Shown here: positions 20,791-55,393 of the stretch, piece after piece
Layout: every line of letters begins with the position of its first letter
Position numbering within the stretch: position 1 is the stretch's first letter
Source of the DNA: Cryptosporangium phraense
GTDB lineage: Bacteria > Actinomycetota > Actinomycetes > Mycobacteriales > Cryptosporangiaceae
NCBI RefSeq assembly: GCF_006912135.1
Contig: NZ_VIRS01000013.1
Span: 1 to 64,000, forward strand
Direction of reading: 5' to 3'
Length of the DNA stretch: 64,000 nt
The notes under the pieces: generated by a model
What the model saw: the letters and a program-made list of their open reading frames with translations, nothing else
Databases searched by the model: none
Told to the model about the DNA's origin: nothing
Position numbers and translations under genes: made by a program

Positions 20791-20813
20791 ACAGTTCTCA
20801 ATTCATCTATGCT
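20787..20813 (+). promoter_or_regulatory. Possible promoter of the molybdenum hydroxylase operon
   Basis: TTAGAC and TATGCT, 15 bp apart, precede the ATG at 20821 with no Shine-Dalgarno. If real, transcription would start at about the start codon, giving a leaderless mRNA. The spacer is short for a standard promoter, so this is tentative. The region lacks the TTACAA-N3-TTGTRA operator. Confidence 0.35.
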
Positions 20814-20820
20814 GAGCGGC

Positions 20821-23148
20821 ATGGCCTTGCCCGTCTCGGCTGCCCGCTACGCGGGCGCCCGGGTTCCCCGCGTCGAAGACCTGCGTCTGCTCACCGGCCG
20901 CGGCACGTTCGTGGACGACGTCGTGCGGCCGGGCATGCTCCACGTCCACTTCGTCCGCAGCCCGATGGCCCGGGCCCGGATCCTCTCGATCGACGCCTCC
21001 GAGGCGCTCGCGCTCGACGGCGTCCACGCGGTGTTCACGGCCGAGGACCTCAACCCCGGCGTGCACGAGCACTGGTACTCGCTGATCGGCCAGGACGTTC
21101 CGGACACCCCGCGCCCGCCCCTGGCCCAGGACGAGGTCCGGTTCGTGGGCGATCCGGTGGCGCTCGTCGTCGCCGAGGACCGGTATGTCGCCGAGGACGC
21201 GGCCGAGCTCGTCGTCGTCGACCTCGAGCCGCTGGCGCCGGTCGTCGACTACGCGACCGCCACCGCGACGGACGAACGGGTGCACGAGGCGTACCCGGAC
21301 AACGTCGTCGGCGAGCTCGGCGGCCGGCCGGTCGAGCAGATCGACGAGATCTTCGCGGCCGCCCCGCACGTCGTGCGGGAGACGATCTACCAGCAGGCCT
21401 ACTCGGCGGTTCCGCTGGAGACCCGCGGGCTGGTCGCCGAGTACTCCGGCCCCACCCGCGAGATGACGATCTGGGCCTCGACCCAGGTGCCGCACGAGAT
21501 GCGGTTGTTCACGTCCCGGCTGCTCGGGCTGCCCGAGCACCACGTCCGCGTCGTCATGAAGGACACCGGCGGCGGCTTCGGGCAGAAGGCGATGCCGCAG
21601 CGCGAGGACATGTGCGTGATGCTGGCCGCGACCAAGGTGCCGGCCGCGCTGAAGTGGATCGAGGACCGGCAGGAGAACCTGATGTCGGCCGGCCAGGGCC
21701 GGCACGAGCACGGGACGGCGCGGCTCGCGTTCGACGACGACGGCCGGATCCTGGCCGCCGCGATCGACCACGTCCAGGACGCCGGCGCGTACCCGGTGCC
21801 CTGGCCGGTGCAGACGGCGATGGTCGTCGGCCTGCTCTTCCCCGGGCCGTACCGGGTCCCGGACGCGACGTTCAGCTGCCGGTCGGTGTTCTCCAACACG
21901 ACCGCGCGGACGGCCTACCGCGGCCCCTGGCAGTTCGAGTCGCTGGCCCGGGAGGTGCTGCTCGACATCGCGGCCCGGCAACTGGACGTCGATCCGATCG
22001 AGTTACGCCGGAAGAACCTGCTCCGGGCCGACGAGATGCCGGTAGCCAACCCCTGCGGCATGCCGTACAGCGACGTCACGCCGCTGGAGACGTTCGAGCA
22101 CGCGATCGCGCTACTGGACTACGAGGCGTTCCGCACGGAGCAGGAGCAGGCCCGCAAGTCCGGCCGCTACCTCGGCGTCGGCACCAGCTCCTACATCGAG
22201 CCGACGACGAGCGGCATGGGCTTCCTCGGCACCGAGGGCGCAACGATCCGGGTCGAGCCGACCGGCAAGGTCAACGTCTACGTCGCCGGCGGATCGACCG
22301 GTAACAGCCTGGAGACGACCGTCGTGCAGCTCACCGCCGACGCGCTGGGCGTCGACATCAGGGACGTCGGCACGATCCAGGGCGACACCGCGGTGACGCC
22401 GTTCGGCGGAGGCACCGGCGGCAGCCGGTCGGGGTCGATGATCGCCGGCGCGGTCGCGCGGACGGCCGAGGGCCTGCGGGAGCGGATCGCGACGATCGCC
22501 GCGCACCAGCTCGAGGCGAACGTCGACGACATCGAGCTGGCCGGAGGCCGGGCCGGGGTGCGGGGCGCGCCGGACACGGCCGTGACGCTGGCGGAGATCG
22601 CCACGATCGCGTACTTCGACACGAACAAGCTGCCGCCCGGCGTGCCGCCCGGGCTGGAGGCCAGCGGCCGGTACCGCGGCCAGGCCCCGATGATCTGGGC
22701 CAACGCCACCCACGTCTGCACCTGCGAGGTCGACGTGGTGACCGGTGCGGTGACGCTGCTGCGGTACATCGTGAGCGAGGACTGCGGGCCGATGATCAAC
22801 CCGAACGTCGTCGAGGGACAGATCGCGGGTGGAACCGTGCAGGGCATCGGGGGCGCGCTCTACGAGCACTCGGCCTACGACGACGCGGGCAACCCGATCG
22901 CGACGACGTTCCTGGACTACCTGCTGCCGACCAGCACCGAGGTGCCGACGATCGAGTACGGGCACGTCGAGACGCCGGGCCCGGGGGAGGGCGGCTACAA
23001 GGGCGTCGGCGAGGGCGGCGCGATCGGGGCACCACCGGCCGTCGTGAACGCGGTGGCCGACGCACTCGCGCCGCTCGGCGTCCGCATCGCCCGGACGCCG
23101 CTGAGCCCGGCGTCGATCGTCGCCCTGATCGAGGAGGCCGGAACGTGA
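20821..23148 (+). CDS. Molybdenum hydroxylase large (molybdopterin-binding) subunit
   Basis: A 775-residue large subunit of the xanthine dehydrogenase/aerobic CO dehydrogenase family, hydroxylating a C-H bond with water-derived oxygen. Visible are RVEDLRLLTGRGTFVDD at the N-terminus, the cofactor loops TGGGFGQKA and TAYRGPWQFES, and the catalytic GEGG loop in YKGVGEGGAIGAPP. The AYRGPW loop lacks the AYRCSF signature of true CO dehydrogenases, so an organic substrate is likely. It is followed, each overlapping by 4-8 bp, by FAD and 2Fe-2S subunits in L-M-S order. ATG 12 nt upstream is an alternative start. Confidence 0.9.
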   Translation: MALPVSAARYAGARVPRVEDLRLLTGRGTFVDDVVRPGMLHVHFVRSPMARARILSIDASEALALDGVHAVFTAEDLNPGVHEHWYSLIGQDVPDTPRPPLAQDEVRFVGDPVALVVAEDRYVAEDAAELVVVDLEPLAPVVDYATATATDERVHEAYPDNVVGELGGRPVEQIDEIFAAAPHVVRETIYQQAYSAVPLETRGLVAEYSGPTREMTIWASTQVPHEMRLFTSRLLGLPEHHVRVVMKDTGGGFGQKAMPQREDMCVMLAATKVPAALKWIEDRQENLMSAGQGRHEHGTARLAFDDDGRILAAAIDHVQDAGAYPVPWPVQTAMVVGLLFPGPYRVPDATFSCRSVFSNTTARTAYRGPWQFESLAREVLLDIAARQLDVDPIELRRKNLLRADEMPVANPCGMPYSDVTPLETFEHAIALLDYEAFRTEQEQARKSGRYLGVGTSSYIEPTTSGMGFLGTEGATIRVEPTGKVNVYVAGGSTGNSLETTVVQLTADALGVDIRDVGTIQGDTAVTPFGGGTGGSRSGSMIAGAVARTAEGLRERIATIAAHQLEANVDDIELAGGRAGVRGAPDTAVTLAEIATIAYFDTNKLPPGVPPGLEASGRYRGQAPMIWANATHVCTCEVDVVTGAVTLLRYIVSEDCGPMINPNVVEGQIAGGTVQGIGGALYEHSAYDDAGNPIATTFLDYLLPTSTEVPTIEYGHVETPGPGEGGYKGVGEGGAIGAPPAVVNAVADALAPLGVRIARTPLSPASIVALIEEAGT

Positions 23149-23999
23149 AGGCCGCCGCGTTCGAGTACCACGCGCCGGACACCGTGGACGAAGTCGTCCG
23201 GCTTCTCTCCGACCTGGGCGACGACGCGAAGGTCATCGCCGGCGGTCAGAGCCTGGTGCCGATGCTGGCGTTCCGGCTGGCCGTCGTCGAGCACCTCGTC
23301 GACCTGCGGAAGCTCACCGCGCTGCGCGGGGTGCGGGAGGTCGGAGACTCCGTGTGGGTCGGCGCCGGGACCACGCAGGCGACGATCCTGCGGTCGTCCG
23401 GACTGGCGTCCGCGGTGCCGCTGCTGACCCGGGCCACCCCGCTGATCGGCCATCACGCGATCCGCAACCGCGGGACGCTGGGTGGCTCGCTGGCGCACGC
23501 CGACGCAGCCGCCGAGTACCCGGCGGTGGCGGTCGCACTGGGCGCCTTCATCGAGACGACGCGGCGGGTCGTGCCCGCGACCGACTTCTTCACCGGCCTG
23601 TGGACCACGGCCCTGGAGCCGGACGAGCTGATCACCGGGGTGACGTTTCCCCGGCGGGGGCCGCGCTCAGGGTTCGCGATCGAGGAGTTCGCCCGGCGCG
23701 CGGGCGACTTCGCGCTGGCCGGCGCCGCCGTCGCGATCGAGCTGGACGAGGACGGCCGGATCGCCGGCGGGGGTATCGGGTTGTTCGGGCTCGCGCCCGT
23801 GCCACAGCGGGTGCCGTTGGCGATCGGGGACGACCCGGCCGGGCTCGACGCTTCCGCGATCGGGCGCGCCGCGGTCGACCAGCTGCCCTCGATCCGTGCC
23901 GACCAGCACGGATCGTCGGGGTACCGCCGCCGGGTCGGCGTCGAGATGGTCGTTCGGGCCTGGACCCGCGCGCTCCGGGAGGCGACGGCGCATGACTGA
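23145..23999 (+). CDS. Molybdenum hydroxylase medium (FAD-binding) subunit
   Basis: A 284-residue FAD-binding subunit of the CoxM/xanthine dehydrogenase type. FAD motifs are AGGQSLVPML (about residue 32) and RNRGTLGGSLAHADAAAE (from 107). It passes electrons from the Mo centre through the 2Fe-2S subunit to its FAD. The GTG start overlaps the stop of the large subunit, and the stop overlaps the next ATG, giving a strictly coupled three-gene unit. Confidence 0.9.
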   Translation: MKAAAFEYHAPDTVDEVVRLLSDLGDDAKVIAGGQSLVPMLAFRLAVVEHLVDLRKLTALRGVREVGDSVWVGAGTTQATILRSSGLASAVPLLTRATPLIGHHAIRNRGTLGGSLAHADAAAEYPAVAVALGAFIETTRRVVPATDFFTGLWTTALEPDELITGVTFPRRGPRSGFAIEEFARRAGDFALAGAAVAIELDEDGRIAGGGIGLFGLAPVPQRVPLAIGDDPAGLDASAIGRAAVDQLPSIRADQHGSSGYRRRVGVEMVVRAWTRALREATAHD

Positions 24000-24462
24000 C
24001 GTCAGCATTCGGGTTTCGGTGAACGGCATCGCGCGGCGGGCCACCGTGCCGGCGCGGCTCACGCTCGCCGACTTCCTCCGGGTGAACTGTGGCCTGACCG
24101 GCACGCACCTGGGGTGCGAGCACGGCGTCTGCGGCGCCTGCACGATCCTGGTCGACGGTGACGCGGTCCGCGCCTGCCTGATGTTCGCGGTGCAGGCCGA
24201 CGGCGCCGAGGTGACGACGATCGAGGGGATCGGCGAGCCGGACGGCACGCTGTCGCCGGTGCAGGCCGCGTTCCGGGATCACCACGGCCTGCAATGCGGC
24301 TTCTGTACGCCCGGCTTCGTCATCTCGGCCACCGCGCTGCTCCGGGAGAACCCCTCGCCGAGCGAGCACGAGATCCGGGACGCGCTGTCGGGGAATCTGT
24401 GCCGCTGCACCGGCTACCAGGGAATCCTCGCCGCCGTGCGGGCCGCCGCGTCGGAGTCGTGA
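23992..24462 (+). CDS. Molybdenum hydroxylase small (2x 2Fe-2S) subunit
   Basis: A 156-residue iron-sulfur subunit. The plant-type 2Fe-2S cluster uses Cys42, Cys47, Cys50 and Cys62 ([16 protein letters not shown]), and the C-terminal helical cluster uses Cys102, Cys105, Cys137 and Cys139 ([18 protein letters not shown]). Length and motif order match the CoxS family. It closes the L-M-S operon and converges with the ferredoxin gene of the P450 operon 16 bp away, with no obvious terminator between them. Confidence 0.92.
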
Positions 24463-24478: not shown

Positions 24479-24664
24479 CTACGTGCTGATCGCGTGCTCC
24501 GGGCAGCTGCCTACCGCCGACTTCACCGCGGCCTCGAGCTCCGGCGGGACGCCGCCGGGGGCGGCGACCGCGTAGCCGTCGTCGGTGAGCGTGAACACCT
24601 CCGGGCAGATCGTCCAGCAGATCCCGTGGCCCCGGCAGGCCTCGTCGTCGACGTGCGCTTTCAC
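24479..24664 (-). CDS. 3Fe-4S-type ferredoxin, P450 partner
   Basis: A 61-residue ferredoxin. Cluster ligands are Cys10 and Cys16 in CRGHGIC and Cys54 in SCP, the spacing of single 3Fe-4S ferredoxins that serve bacterial P450s. An extra Cys20 (WTICPEVF), where most relatives have Ala, could alter cluster type. The GTG start overlaps the P450 stop (GTGA), so this is its dedicated electron donor. No ferredoxin reductase is encoded nearby. Confidence 0.88.
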   Translation of the reverse strand: MKAHVDDEACRGHGICWTICPEVFTLTDDGYAVAAPGGVPPELEAAVKSAVGSCPEHAIST

Positions 24665-25917
24665 GAATCGAACTCCAGGTTCAGGTGGGTGAGGCCGCGC
24701 AGGATGAACGTCGGCAGGTAGGAGTACCGGCGGGCGCCGGCCGGGCCGTGGACCGCCTCGGAGATGCGGATGTCCGACGTGCGGTCCAACAGCCGCTCCA
24801 GGCAGGCCCGCGCCTCGGCCCGGGCCAGCGGGGCTCCCGGGCAGGTGTGGATCCCGCGCCCGAACGCCATGTGGTGGCGGGCGTTCGTCCGGTCGAGGTC
24901 GAACGTCTCCGGGTCGTCGAAGTGCCGCGGGTCGCGGTTCGCGGCCGCGTTCACGACCATCACGGTCGTGCCGGCCGGGATGTCGACGCCACCGACCGTG
25001 GTCGCGGTCCGGGAGACCCGGAAGTCGCCTTTCACCGGGCTCTCGAACCGCAGGGTCTCCTCGATGAACTGCGGGATCCGATCGCGCTCCCGCCGCAGCA
25101 GAGCCTGCAGCGGGGCGTCCTCGGCCAGCCGCTGCACGGCCGCACCCAGCAGCCGCACGGTCGTCTCCTGTCCGGCCGCGAAGACGTTCGCGGCGACCCG
25201 GACGACCTCGATCACCTCGGGCTGCGACCCGTCCGGGAACGTCGCCGACGCCATGCCGGTGAGCACGTCGTTCCGGGGGTTCTCCCTACGGCCCGCGATG
25301 TACGTGCTGAACTGCGAGTACAGGAACTCCAGCGGCGAGTGCTGCATCGAGTCGCCGCCGGTGCCGCCGATGTTGCCGGCCTGGCCCATGCCCCGGCTGA
25401 ACTCGGTCTGGTCCTCGGCCGGCACGCCGAGCAGGTCGGAGATGACCAGGAAGCTGAACGGCTGGGCGAACCCGCTGATGAACTCCGCTTTGCCGGCGGC
25501 CAGCAACGGCTCGAGCAGCCCGTCGGCGAGACGCCAGATCGCCTCCTCGTTCTCTTTGAGCCGCCGGGGCGTGATCAGCCGCATCAGCAGTGCCCGGTGC
25601 TTCGCGTGCGTCGGAAGGTCCATCGTGATGATCTGGTCGCTCATCGGGAGCCCGGACCGGTGCTCCTCGATCAGGTCGCTGACGTCGTCGCCCTCCAGCG
25701 GAACCGGGAAGCCCGGGAACGGGCCGGTCACCGACGACGCCGAGGAGAACGTGGTGGTGTCCGAGTAGACCGCCATCGCCTCGTCGTACCCGGTCACCAT
25801 CATGACGTCGTGGTGGGGCTCGCGGAGCACCGGGCAACGGTCCCGCAGTGATCGGTAGTACGGGTACGGGTCTTCGACCAGTTCGTTCCCGAGGAAGAAG
25901 TCGTACTCAGTGGTCAC
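24661..25917 (-). CDS. Cytochrome P450 (first)
   Basis: A 418-residue soluble bacterial P450. Hallmarks are the I-helix oxygen-activation motif AAGQETT, the K-helix EETLR (ExxR), and the haem loop FGRGIHTCPGAPLAR with the thiolate Cys. It should hydroxylate a substrate or pathway intermediate using the downstream ferredoxin. The GTG start lies inside the end of the upstream CoA-ligase gene (11-bp overlap), so it belongs to the same five-gene minus-strand operon. Its substrate is unknown. Confidence 0.9.
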   Translation of the reverse strand: MTTEYDFFLGNELVEDPYPYYRSLRDRCPVLREPHHDVMMVTGYDEAMAVYSDTTTFSSASSVTGPFPGFPVPLEGDDVSDLIEEHRSGLPMSDQIITMDLPTHAKHRALLMRLITPRRLKENEEAIWRLADGLLEPLLAAGKAEFISGFAQPFSFLVISDLLGVPAEDQTEFSRGMGQAGNIGGTGGDSMQHSPLEFLYSQFSTYIAGRRENPRNDVLTGMASATFPDGSQPEVIEVVRVAANVFAAGQETTVRLLGAAVQRLAEDAPLQALLRRERDRIPQFIEETLRFESPVKGDFRVSRTATTVGGVDIPAGTTVMVVNAAANRDPRHFDDPETFDLDRTNARHHMAFGRGIHTCPGAPLARAEARACLERLLDRTSDIRISEAVHGPAGARRYSYLPTFILRGLTHLNLEFDS

Positions 25918-50368: not shown

Positions 50369-50387
50369 TGCAATCATGGAAATTGCA
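50369..50387. promoter_or_regulatory. Inverted repeat over the GntR start codon
   Basis: TGCAAT (50369-50374) and ATTGCA (50382-50387) are perfectly inverted around 7 nt that include the ATG. A palindrome over the start of a GntR-family gene suggests autoregulation. It does not resemble the TTACAA-N3-TTGTRA sites. Confidence 0.5.
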
Positions 50388-51179
50388 GGAGCTGAACCGA
50401 CTCGAATCGGGCAGCTGCGTATGGCGGAGCAGGTGGCGTCCGCACTACGCGAACGGATCCTCGCCGGTGGCATCCGCGACGGTTCGACCCTGCCGAAGCA
50501 GGACCAGCTGGTGGCCGAGTTCGGCGTCAGCTACCCCTCGGTGCGCGAAGCGCTGCGCATCCTGGAGACCGAAGGCTTCATCACGGTCCGCCGCGGCAAC
50601 CGGGGCGGGGCCGTCGTGCACGCGCCCGACATCGGCACGGCCGGGTACGCGCTCGGGCTGACGCTGCAGGCGATGCAGGTCAAGGTGCCCGACCTGGGCG
50701 GGGCGCTGAGCACGCTCGAGCCGCTGTGCGCGGCGCACTGCGCGCAGCGGGCCGACCGGAAGAAGACGGTCGTTCCGCGCCTGCGTGAGCTGCTCACCCG
50801 TAGCGAGGCGGGCATGGACGACGGGGCGGTGTTCACCCGCATCTCCCGCGAGTTCCACGACGCCGTCGTCGAGTTCGACCCCAACGCCACGCTGCGGGTC
50901 GTCGTCAAGAGCCTGACGTCGCTGTGGTCGGTGCAGGAGGAGGCCTGGGCCGACACGCAGCTGTCCCGCGGGTCCTACCCGTCGCGCAAGGACCGGGAGG
51001 CGGCCCACAACGCGCACGAGCGGCTGCTCGAGGCGATCGAGGCCGGCGACGCGGAGGAGGCCGGCCGCATCACGGCCGAGCACCTCGTCGCGGCCCAGCG
51101 GGTCGTCGGCCGGACGTTGAAGAACACGGTGATCGACGCGGCGTCCGACCGCAGCCGCAAGCGCTTCCGTCGCGGATGA
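50376..51179 (+). CDS. GntR-family (FadR/FCD-type) transcriptional regulator
   Basis: A 267-residue regulator. N-terminal winged helix spans about residues 15-85 (VASALRERILAGGIRDG, FGVSYPSVREALRILETEGFI, RRGNRGGAVV) and a helical FCD effector domain follows (SREFHDAVVEF, and a C-terminal AHERLLEAIEAGDAEEAGRITAEHL typical of FCD proteins). Members usually repress catabolic operons until an acid or acyl-CoA binds. It lies between operator sites D and E, making it a candidate for their regulator. Its stop overlaps the next SDR (ATGA). Confidence 0.9.
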   Translation: MEIAGAEPTRIGQLRMAEQVASALRERILAGGIRDGSTLPKQDQLVAEFGVSYPSVREALRILETEGFITVRRGNRGGAVVHAPDIGTAGYALGLTLQAMQVKVPDLGGALSTLEPLCAAHCAQRADRKKTVVPRLRELLTRSEAGMDDGAVFTRISREFHDAVVEFDPNATLRVVVKSLTSLWSVQEEAWADTQLSRGSYPSRKDREAAHNAHERLLEAIEAGDAEEAGRITAEHLVAAQRVVGRTLKNTVIDAASDRSRKRFRRG

Positions 51180-53020: not shown

Positions 53021-53215
53021 TCACCCGTCGGCCAGGCGTAGCGCGAGCGTCGGGCAGGCCGCGACCGCTGCCCGCACCGCGTCTGCGTGTCCGGCGTCCA
53101 CGTCGTCGGCCAGCAGCACGACCAGCCCGTCGTCGTCCACCGCGAAGTAGCCGGGCGCCTCGGCCTCGCAGAGGCCGAGGCCGATGCACTTGTCGCGGTC
53201 CGCGGTGATCCTCAT
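53021..53215 (-). CDS. 3Fe-4S-type ferredoxin, P450 partner
   Basis: A 64-residue ferredoxin with Cys10 and Cys16 in CIGLGLC and a third Cys in AACP near residue 54, the single-cluster 3Fe-4S pattern. Unlike the other ferredoxin in this window it has Ala at the fourth position. It starts one base into the P450 stop (TGATG) and is its electron donor. Confidence 0.9.
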   Translation of the reverse strand: MRITADRDKCIGLGLCEAEAPGYFAVDDDGLVVLLADDVDAGHADAVRAAVAACPTLALRLADG

Positions 53216-54411
53216 CAGCGGACCCGCACCGGGAGCGTTTCCCACCCACGCACGGTCGAGGTGGACGCCAGACGGGCGCGGTCGATGTCGACGGTCCACG
53301 TCGGGAACCGGTCGAGCATCTCCTCCAGCACCACCCGGCCCTCCAGGCGGGCCAGGGCGTTGCCCAGGCAGAAGTGGATGCCGCCGCCGAACGTCAGGTG
53401 TTGGACGTCCGGGCGCCGGACGTCGAACCGGTCGGGGTCGGCGTAGCGGCGGGGATCCCGGTTGGCCGCGGCCATGATCGCCATCATGATGCTGCCCTGC
53501 GGGATCGTCGTGCCGTGCACCTCGACGTCGCGGGTCACCGACCGGCACATGAACGGGCCCGGGGGCTCCAGCCGGAGCACCTCCTCGAGTGCGTTCGGGA
53601 TCAGCGACCGGTCCGCGGCGAGCGCGGCCCGCTGCTCGGGATGGTCGGCCAGCAGCTTGGTGAACCAGCCGATCAGACGGCCGGTGGTCTCGTTCCCGGC
53701 TCCGCCGAGAACGGTGACGTACAGGACGATCTCGTCGCGGGTGAGGTGGCGGACGGTGCCGGTCTCGTCCTCGAACTCGGCTTGGAGCAACTGGGTGATG
53801 ACGTCGTCGCCCGGGTTGGCCGCGCGCCAGTCGACGTAGGCGCCGAACGCTTCGCCGTCGAGCAGCGTCTGGTCCATCGTCATCGGTTGGTTGCCCTCGG
53901 TGCGCAGCGAGTTGTCGACCGCGTCGCGGACCGCCTCCTGCTCGGCCTCGGGTATGCCGAGCAGCAGGCCGATCGCGCGCATCGGGACCTGCGCGCCCAC
54001 CTCGGCGATGACGTCGAACCCGTCGGACCCCACCAGCGGGTCGAGCGACCGGACGCAGAACTCGCGGATCTGAGGCTCCAGCGACGCGATGCGCTTCGGC
54101 GTGAAGACGCGGGAGAGCAGGCGGCGGTGCAGCGGGTGGAGCGGCGGGTCCTCGAAGATCAGCACACCGGACGGGACCTCGATGTCGGCCTGGATGATCT
54201 CGAGGATGTCGCCCTTGGCGCTGCTGTAGGTCTCGTGGTCCTGCAGCACCGCGGCGACGTCCGCGTGCCTGCTCACGGCATAGAACCCGAGCTCGCGGTT
54301 GTGGTAGAGCGGCGCTTCCTCGCGCAGCCGCGCGAACACCGGGTAGGGGTCGGCGATGATCGCGCTGTCGTACGGACTGAAGCTCACTTCGTCGGTCGTC
54401 GTGGCGGTCAT
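53215..54411 (-). CDS. Cytochrome P450 (second)
   Basis: A 398-residue soluble P450. I-helix LGGAGNETT, K-helix EEVLR, haem loop FGGGIHFCLGNALAR with the thiolate Cys. AGGAGG precedes the ATG at good spacing. It is divergent from a mycofactocin-type SDR; the 163-bp gap holds two similar palindromes. P450 hydroxylation followed by SDR oxidation of the new alcohol is a natural pairing. Different subfamily from the P450 at 24.7 kb. Confidence 0.92.
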   Translation of the reverse strand: MTATTTDEVSFSPYDSAIIADPYPVFARLREEAPLYHNRELGFYAVSRHADVAAVLQDHETYSSAKGDILEIIQADIEVPSGVLIFEDPPLHPLHRRLLSRVFTPKRIASLEPQIREFCVRSLDPLVGSDGFDVIAEVGAQVPMRAIGLLLGIPEAEQEAVRDAVDNSLRTEGNQPMTMDQTLLDGEAFGAYVDWRAANPGDDVITQLLQAEFEDETGTVRHLTRDEIVLYVTVLGGAGNETTGRLIGWFTKLLADHPEQRAALAADRSLIPNALEEVLRLEPPGPFMCRSVTRDVEVHGTTIPQGSIMMAIMAAANRDPRRYADPDRFDVRRPDVQHLTFGGGIHFCLGNALARLEGRVVLEEMLDRFPTWTVDIDRARLASTSTVRGWETLPVRVR

Positions 54412-54426
54412 GGGAGCCTCCTGATT

Positions 54427-54446
54427 TCTCCGACAACTGTCGGAGA
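54427..54446. promoter_or_regulatory. Palindromic operator 1 of the P450/SDR promoter
   Basis: TCTCCGACA-AC-TGTCGGAGA, perfect 9-bp arms, 16 nt upstream of the P450 ATG and overlapping its Shine-Dalgarno region. The same core TCCGACA-N2-TGTCGGA recurs in operator 2, 50 bp away. Size and symmetry fit a TetR-type repressor. Confidence 0.75.
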
Positions 54447-54495
54447 GGCTCCCATGTGACCCCGGCGGGTGCAACAGGTTCTAGTGGCATTCCCC

Positions 54496-54523
54496 GCTTT
54501 CCCCGACAGATGTCGGAGAAAGC
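54496..54523. promoter_or_regulatory. Palindromic operator 2 of the P450/SDR promoter
   Basis: 13-bp arms (54496-54508 and 54511-54523) pair at 12 of 13 positions around GA; the core is CCGACA-GA-TGTCGG. It lies 51 bp before the SDR ATG, in the position of its core promoter. Confidence 0.75.
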
Positions 54524-54574: not shown

Positions 54575-55393
54575 ATGGGAAAGCTAGAGGGCAAAGTCGC
54601 CTTCATCACCGGCGCCGCGCAGGGCCAGGGCCGCAGTCACGCGATCACGCTGGCGCGGGAAGGCGCCGACATCATCGCCGTCGACATCTGCGCCCAACTG
54701 GAGTCGGTGGCCTACACGATGGGCACAGCCGAGGGACTCGAGGAGACCGTGCGCGAGGTCGAGAAACTCGACCGGCGGATCTTCGCCGCTCGAGCCGACA
54801 CCCGAGACGCCGCCCAGTTGCGCACGGCCTTCGAGGAAGGCGTGGCCGCGGTCGGTCCGGTCGACATCGTGCTGGCCAATGCCGGGATCGGCGCCGGCGG
54901 CGCGCCGGTCGGCGAGGACCAGGAGTGGGACGAGGTCGTCGGCGTGAATCTGAAGGGTGTCTGGAACACCGGCCGGGTCGCGATCCCCTCGATGATCGAA
55001 CGCGGCAAAGGCGGCGCGATCGTGCTCACCAGCTCCACCGGTGGCCTGATCGGAGCGGGCATCGCCACCGCCGGGTATCTCGGGTACACCGCGGCCAAGC
55101 ACGGCGTCGTCGGCCTGATGCGCTCCTGGGCCAACTACCTGGCGCCGCACTACATCCGCGTCAACAGCGTCGCGCCCACCACCGTCCGGACACCGATGTC
55201 CGGCGACGGCGCCATCATGGACATCGTCAAAGACATCCCCGAACTGGCCGGCGCGCTGACCAACGCGATCCCGGTGCCGTTCGTCGAACCCGAAGACGTC
55301 TCCAACGCCATCCTCTACCTCGTCTCCGACGACGCCCGCTACATCACCGGTACCGTCCTGCCCGTCGACGCCGGCTCCTACAACCGCCGCTGA
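54575..55393 (+). CDS. Mycofactocin-dependent SDR-family oxidoreductase
   Basis: A 272-residue SDR with the N-terminal signature of the mycofactocin-coupled subgroup: GKVAFITGAAQGQGRSHA and IIAVDIC, an insert between strands 2 and 3 (residues 41-70), NAG (102-104), Ser153, Tyr171 and Lys175, and YITGTVLPVDAG at the end. Family knowledge: these hold NAD tightly and pass electrons to the peptide cofactor mycofactocin. No mycofactocin biosynthesis genes are in this window. TAGGAG precedes the ATG. Confidence 0.88.
   Translation: MGKLEGKVAFITGAAQGQGRSHAITLAREGADIIAVDICAQLESVAYTMGTAEGLEETVREVEKLDRRIFAARADTRDAAQLRTAFEEGVAAVGPVDIVLANAGIGAGGAPVGEDQEWDEVVGVNLKGVWNTGRVAIPSMIERGKGGAIVLTSSTGGLIGAGIATAGYLGYTAAKHGVVGLMRSWANYLAPHYIRVNSVAPTTVRTPMSGDGAIMDIVKDIPELAGALTNAIPVPFVEPEDVSNAILYLVSDDARYITGTVLPVDAGSYNRR

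Follow-up and report, generated by a model that had tools for sequence, protein, structure and literature searches.

A putative TetR-type operator between P450 and mycofactocin-SDR genes in Cryptosporangium phraense, and a candidate regulator at an unlinked locus

Two palindromes between divergent oxidation genes

Which protein regulates two divergent oxidation genes when palindromic sites stand between them and no regulator gene adjoins? TetR genes surveyed in mycobacteria mostly adjoin their likely targets (PMC4482099). We investigated a locus where this is not so, using a stretch of 64,000 nucleotides of Cryptosporangium phraense (contig NZ_VIRS01000013.1, positions 1-64,000; hereafter the window), the 8.46-Mb genome that contains it (G000) and three other genomes of the same genus (G001, G002 and G003; the sister genomes). 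The relevant features of the window are as follows.

53021-53215, minus strand: ferredoxin of the 4Fe-4S single-cluster type (PF13459), second gene under O1
53215-54411, minus strand: cytochrome P450 (PF00067), first gene under O1; orthologs in G001-G003 are 75-79% identical
54409-54420 and 54445-54456: perfect 12-bp outer inverted repeat around O1
54427-54446: putative operator O1, a perfect palindrome TCTCCGACA-AC-TGTCGGAGA with 9-bp arms, ending 15 bp before the P450 start codon
54470-54483: KstR-like box TAGAACCTGTTGCA between O1 and O2, matching TNNAACNNGTTNNA; its role is doubtful
54496-54523: putative operator O2, a 28-bp palindrome GCTTTCCCCGACAGATGTCGGAGAAAGC with one mismatched pair and a 20-bp core at 54500-54519
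54575-55393, plus strand: mycofactocin-coupled SDR (TIGR03971), gene behind O2

The first-pass annotation had reported twin palindromes between a P450 and a mycofactocin-type SDR, with no TetR gene beside them. We confirmed this observation: no TetR gene adjoins the palindromes, and the nearest regulator is a GntR/FCD gene (50376-51179). The two cores are separated by 53 bp (73 bp from centre to centre), and the O2 core ends 55 bp before the SDR start codon. We recognized no sigma-70-like promoter in the intergenic region that holds O1 and O2, and the statement of the first-pass annotation that the palindromes cover both divergent promoters found no support.

The scans of G000 used patterns with allowed mismatches. 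The pattern TCTCCGACANNTGTCGGAGA, with at most 3 mismatches, has exactly two matches in the window, while none of 100 dinucleotide shuffles of the window contained two (mean 0.05). Across the whole of G000, only O1 and O2 are found at 0-2 mismatches; three more sites appear at 3 mismatches, all of them within ORFs. We rejected the idea of a terminator or repeat element, as no site is terminator-like and G000 has just two copies.

The SDR scores 351 bits against the NCBIfam mycofactocin-SDR profile TIGR03971, above its cut-off of 300, and G000 also encodes MftC (663 bits, cut-off 265). Among P450s of solved structure, even those closest to the window's P450 (6gmf first, followed by CYP125-type and CYP130 chains) are no more than distantly related to it. 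These genes lie in a catabolic cluster that includes a CoA ligase, a CaiB-type CoA transferase, a Rieske oxygenase, an FMO-like monooxygenase and a thiamine-pyrophosphate enzyme. The same cluster contains the GntR/FCD gene, approximately 3.2 kb from the palindromes, and a second P450 with its own ferredoxin (24479-25917), which adjoins a molybdopterin hydroxylase. The SDR protein is 96% identical between the window and G003 (L066, L107; C71), whereas identity is only about 77% for the P450 orthologs next to it; this difference suggests a recent transfer of the SDR.

Conservation of the palindrome

The 22-bp site TTCTCCGACANNTGTCGGAGAA occurs directly upstream of the P450 ortholog in G001, G002 and G003, so that a palindrome precedes this gene in all four genomes of the genus. 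The arms TTCTCCGACA and TGTCGGAGAA and the 2-bp spacer are intact in the sister genomes, and the flanks have otherwise diverged. A second P450 copy in G003 (C6), 76% identical, is preceded merely by a palindrome with 4 mismatches. When the 22-bp pattern was searched in 397 genomes of the order, 0-1 mismatch yielded the four genus genomes only, and 2 mismatches added single matches in four other genomes; we discarded one of these (G369), which lies within coding sequence.

The first-pass annotation had named one finding that would speak against an operator, namely a palindrome that is widespread at terminators or in unrelated coding sequence. Our results did not refute an operator: we found no terminator-like site, and only seven scattered stretches with the exact 20-mer in a search of one genome per species in 84,980 species. 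Among these stretches, that of Herbidospora sakaeratensis is a longer version of the palindrome, located 17 bp ahead of a TetR gene with a similar recognition helix. The remaining exact matches (in Dehalococcoidia, Anaerolineales, Firmicutes, Algoriphagus and Harrisonbacteria) were taken as unrelated or as chance.

The comparison with the sister genomes also bears on other elements of the intergenic region. It is conceivable that O1 functions as RNA, in that it would, with the 12-bp repeat CATGGGAGCCTC/GAGGCTCCCATG, fold the P450 leader and hide the ribosome-binding site and start codon. The leader has a predicted fold of -41.1 kcal/mol (z -4.2), and the outer repeat of the hairpin is perfect over its 12 bp. 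However, this repeat is missing from all three sister genomes, in which the palindrome alone remains, and O2 precedes another gene without such a hairpin. With an outer stem that is specific to G000 within the genus, we rejected the RNA hairpin and consider this explanation very unlikely.

A second possibility is that the locus belongs to the KstR (cholesterol) regulon, where the box between the palindromes would be the main operator and the palindromes would be secondary. The box is an exact match to TNNAACNNGTTNNA, the sole one in the window, and G000, which has a KstR system, contains 49 TNNAACNNGTTNNA sites, one of them ahead of a KstR-like gene, compared with 19 for a control pattern. However, such a box also arises in 6 of 100 shuffles of the window, and it is not conserved: the aligned stretches TCGAACCTATTGCG (G001) and TCGGACCCATTGCG (G003) differ at 2 and 3 positions, respectively, whereas the palindrome there is intact. 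Given a box that is broken in orthologs, the locus does not qualify as a member of the KstR regulon; we rejected KstR as the main regulator, a role that we regard as improbable.

A candidate regulator and its probable relocation

We used the Herbidospora TetR protein as a query, which led to TetR genes in the P450 operons of the sister genomes. In G001, G002 and G003, the palindrome-bearing operon has a TetR gene after the P450 gene, with a ferredoxin gene between them in G001. All four genomes of the genus have a single ortholog of this TetR, and the next matches among 101 relatives are at 33-34% identity. The sole ortholog in G000 is at C1:324901-325545, i.e., on another contig and unlinked to the palindromes, and is 65% identical to that of G001 in an alignment (67% in the search). 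The candidate regulator gene is therefore adjacent to the putative operator in the three sister genomes, an arrangement that is usual but not obligatory for TetR repressors, and unlinked in G000. This result supports the proposal of the first-pass annotation that the regulator acts from elsewhere. A further expectation, that a TetR gene would carry the site upstream, proved correct in the sister genomes, where the TetR gene is under the site within the P450 operon, and incorrect in G000, where the candidate TetR gene does not have the site before it.

In G000, the TetR gene is flanked by a lipoprotein gene and an XRE-type region. The same lipoprotein and XRE neighbours are together in G001, G002 and G003 with no TetR gene between them. 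Because the G000 flanks adjoin each other in the sister genomes, the simplest reading of these gene orders is that the TetR gene was relocated in the lineage of the window's genome. The relocated gene is about 8 kb downstream of a binuclear-iron monooxygenase gene set with a GroEL gene (L103, G000:C1:315500-335000); this set (PF02332) is propane-monooxygenase-like by layout.

At its new location, the TetR gene lacks a recognizable operator: in the 600 bp around its start, even the best match differs at 8 of 20 positions, and a reduced motif (see below) reaches at most 8 of 12 letters in the surrounding 2.5 kb. Autoregulation therefore appears to have been lost in G000. It is important to consider that, because the TetR gene has no operator of its own, its tie to O1 and O2 rests on orthology. 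In addition, the recognition region of the G000 protein differs slightly from that of the sister proteins (AEVNRSTFYEHY versus AGLSRSTFYEHY or ARVSRSTFYEHY). With the Pfam TetR_N model (gathering score 24), the G000 protein scores 19.3 bits and its G002 ortholog 23.4 bits. A profile built from the four orthologs matches solved chains of the TetR family, e.g., 3kkc (E 8e-9) and EthR (E 5e-5).

The palindromes could instead be bound by another regulator, for which there are two candidates: the GntR/FCD protein (50376-51179) and the MftR of the mycofactocin cluster. MftR is a regulator of mycofactocin biosynthesis, and mycofactocin genes are under its control in mycobacteria (PMC8728441); the GntR gene lies within the same catabolic cluster, about 3.2 kb away. 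However, the window has no further site, whether close to the GntR gene or anywhere else, nor is there a site in the mft region, and the published MftR palindrome, T-N2-GGCA-N5-TGCC-N2-A, is different (PMC8728441). Moreover, in the sister genomes the operator goes together with the P450-linked TetR. With no sites nearby, a different MftR operator and a locus that does not qualify for the MftR regulon, we rejected both candidates and view their involvement as most improbable.

The operator motif upstream of distant TetR homologs

As an independent test, we looked for the motif before more distant homologs of the candidate TetR. A search for TetR homologs over 394 genomes of the class found matches in 41 genomes. 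We then scanned the 150 bp before each TetR start with the reduced pattern TTN4GACAN2TGTCN4AA, which is the genus operator reduced to its ends and its core. At least 10 of the 12 letters were matched at 14 of the 29 homologous TetR loci, where shuffles gave an expectation of 0.045; control windows reached this level in 1.6% of 570 cases. GACA ranked first among the 256 possible four-letter cores. Perfect cores were found only with the 2-bp spacer, at 7 loci, and at none with spacers of 0, 1, 3, 4 or 5.

These counts overstate the independence of the observations, because several loci are near-duplicates and because we had already looked at the loci once when the pattern was shortened. Despite this caveat, the direction of the enrichment before homologous TetR genes is clear. 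The loci without a motif are mostly from one genus (g102), where related palindromes are present farther from the TetR start. Near the TetR homologs there are, among others, SDR genes, a monooxygenase gene that is FMO-type by its sequence, a gene for a mycofactocin-type SDR and a P450 gene, and these neighbourhoods fit a control of oxidative catabolism.

Extent of the regulon

The first-pass annotation also suggested that the regulator may control more P450 or mycofactocin genes. For G000, this was not borne out. Since there is no third site at 0-2 mismatches in the genome, the regulon of G000 would, by this evidence, be limited to the P450-ferredoxin operon and the SDR. The window also contains a molybdopterin hydroxylase gene set (20809-24462; 79% DNA identity), orthologous to one with an operator in G003 and a weaker one in G001, but here no site is present.

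For G003, the suggestion holds, in the form of a second P450-SDR operon and a molybdopterin hydroxylase. Another P450 (59% identical) is located in an operon with an SDR that is 96% identical to that of the window, and a palindrome with 2 mismatches is upstream. The orthologous molybdopterin hydroxylase genes are preceded by a perfect site in G003 and by a site with 3 mismatches in G001. G003 also contains a tandem array (C41:9392-9846) in which six copies of TCACCGACACACGTCGGGGA are spaced exactly 87 bp apart; its palindrome bears a loose resemblance to the operator.

Predicted mode of regulation

A palindromic operator at the promoter of a target gene is what is expected for a TetR repressor, and the palindromes and their conservation in the genus provide it. 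We consider it highly probable that O1 and O2 are operators of one dimeric TetR-family repressor that is encoded elsewhere, at G000:C1:324901-325545. Under this model, the repressor would bind O1, which heads the P450-ferredoxin operon, as well as O2, before the SDR, and the bound repressor would shut off both divergent transcripts. The substrate or an intermediate of the pathway, oxidized by the P450 and then by the mycofactocin SDR, would release the repressor. In the sister genomes, where the repressor gene is the last in the P450 operon, the protein would repress itself. In G000, the repressor gene would have moved and its feedback would have been lost, while the operator would have stayed and a second one would serve the SDR.

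TetR proteins can activate as well as repress; we favour repression as the mode given that the sites are close to the start codons. The centre spacing of 73 bp is about 7 helical turns; the two dimers would then sit on the same side of the helix, and cooperation between the dimers bound at O1 and O2 is possible.

The apparent loss of autoregulation also allows a more elaborate explanation, in which the unlinked TetR would use O1 as a DNA operator while O1, within the 12-bp outer repeat specific to G000, would also form the centre of an RNA hairpin over the P450 start codon. KstR would act as a third input at the box between the operators, and these layers would have replaced the lost feedback. 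We judge such a combination to have very little probability, and we retain the unlinked TetR repressor as our prediction.

Relation to known systems and implications

By its mode of action, the system is of a known kind, i.e., a TetR-type operator with its regulon. We found no description of a GACA-N2-TGTC operator in the literature searched, in whose figures motif logos were unreadable. The locus resembles surveyed TetR repressors with short palindromic operators in that a palindrome is located between divergent genes, the targets are enzymes and the regulon is small, and the TetR of the sister genomes, like others in the survey, is co-transcribed with its target (PMC4482099). It departs from these systems in G000, where the regulator gene lies at an unlinked locus and lacks its own operator.

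Two specific regulators also invite comparison. KstR is likewise a TetR-family protein that controls P450 and steroid genes at a distance, and a KstR-like box is present between the palindromes; however, its operator TNNAACNNGTTNNA is unrelated to the palindromes, and the box is not conserved in orthologs. MftR shares the TetR family and the link to mycofactocin, but its published operator differs (PMC8728441), and the candidate TetR scores 13 bits with an MftR cut-off of 224.9.

The comparative evidence connects an orphan operator with one particular candidate regulator at an unlinked locus, and describes across a class an operator family with a GACA-N2-TGTC core together with its TetR clade. 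The locus would also be a clean example from nature of a repressor gene that has left the operon to which it belonged. For the genus, our analysis predicts a co-regulated module of P450, mycofactocin-dehydrogenase and molybdopterin-hydroxylase genes, the substrate of which could be found via the compound that releases the repressor.
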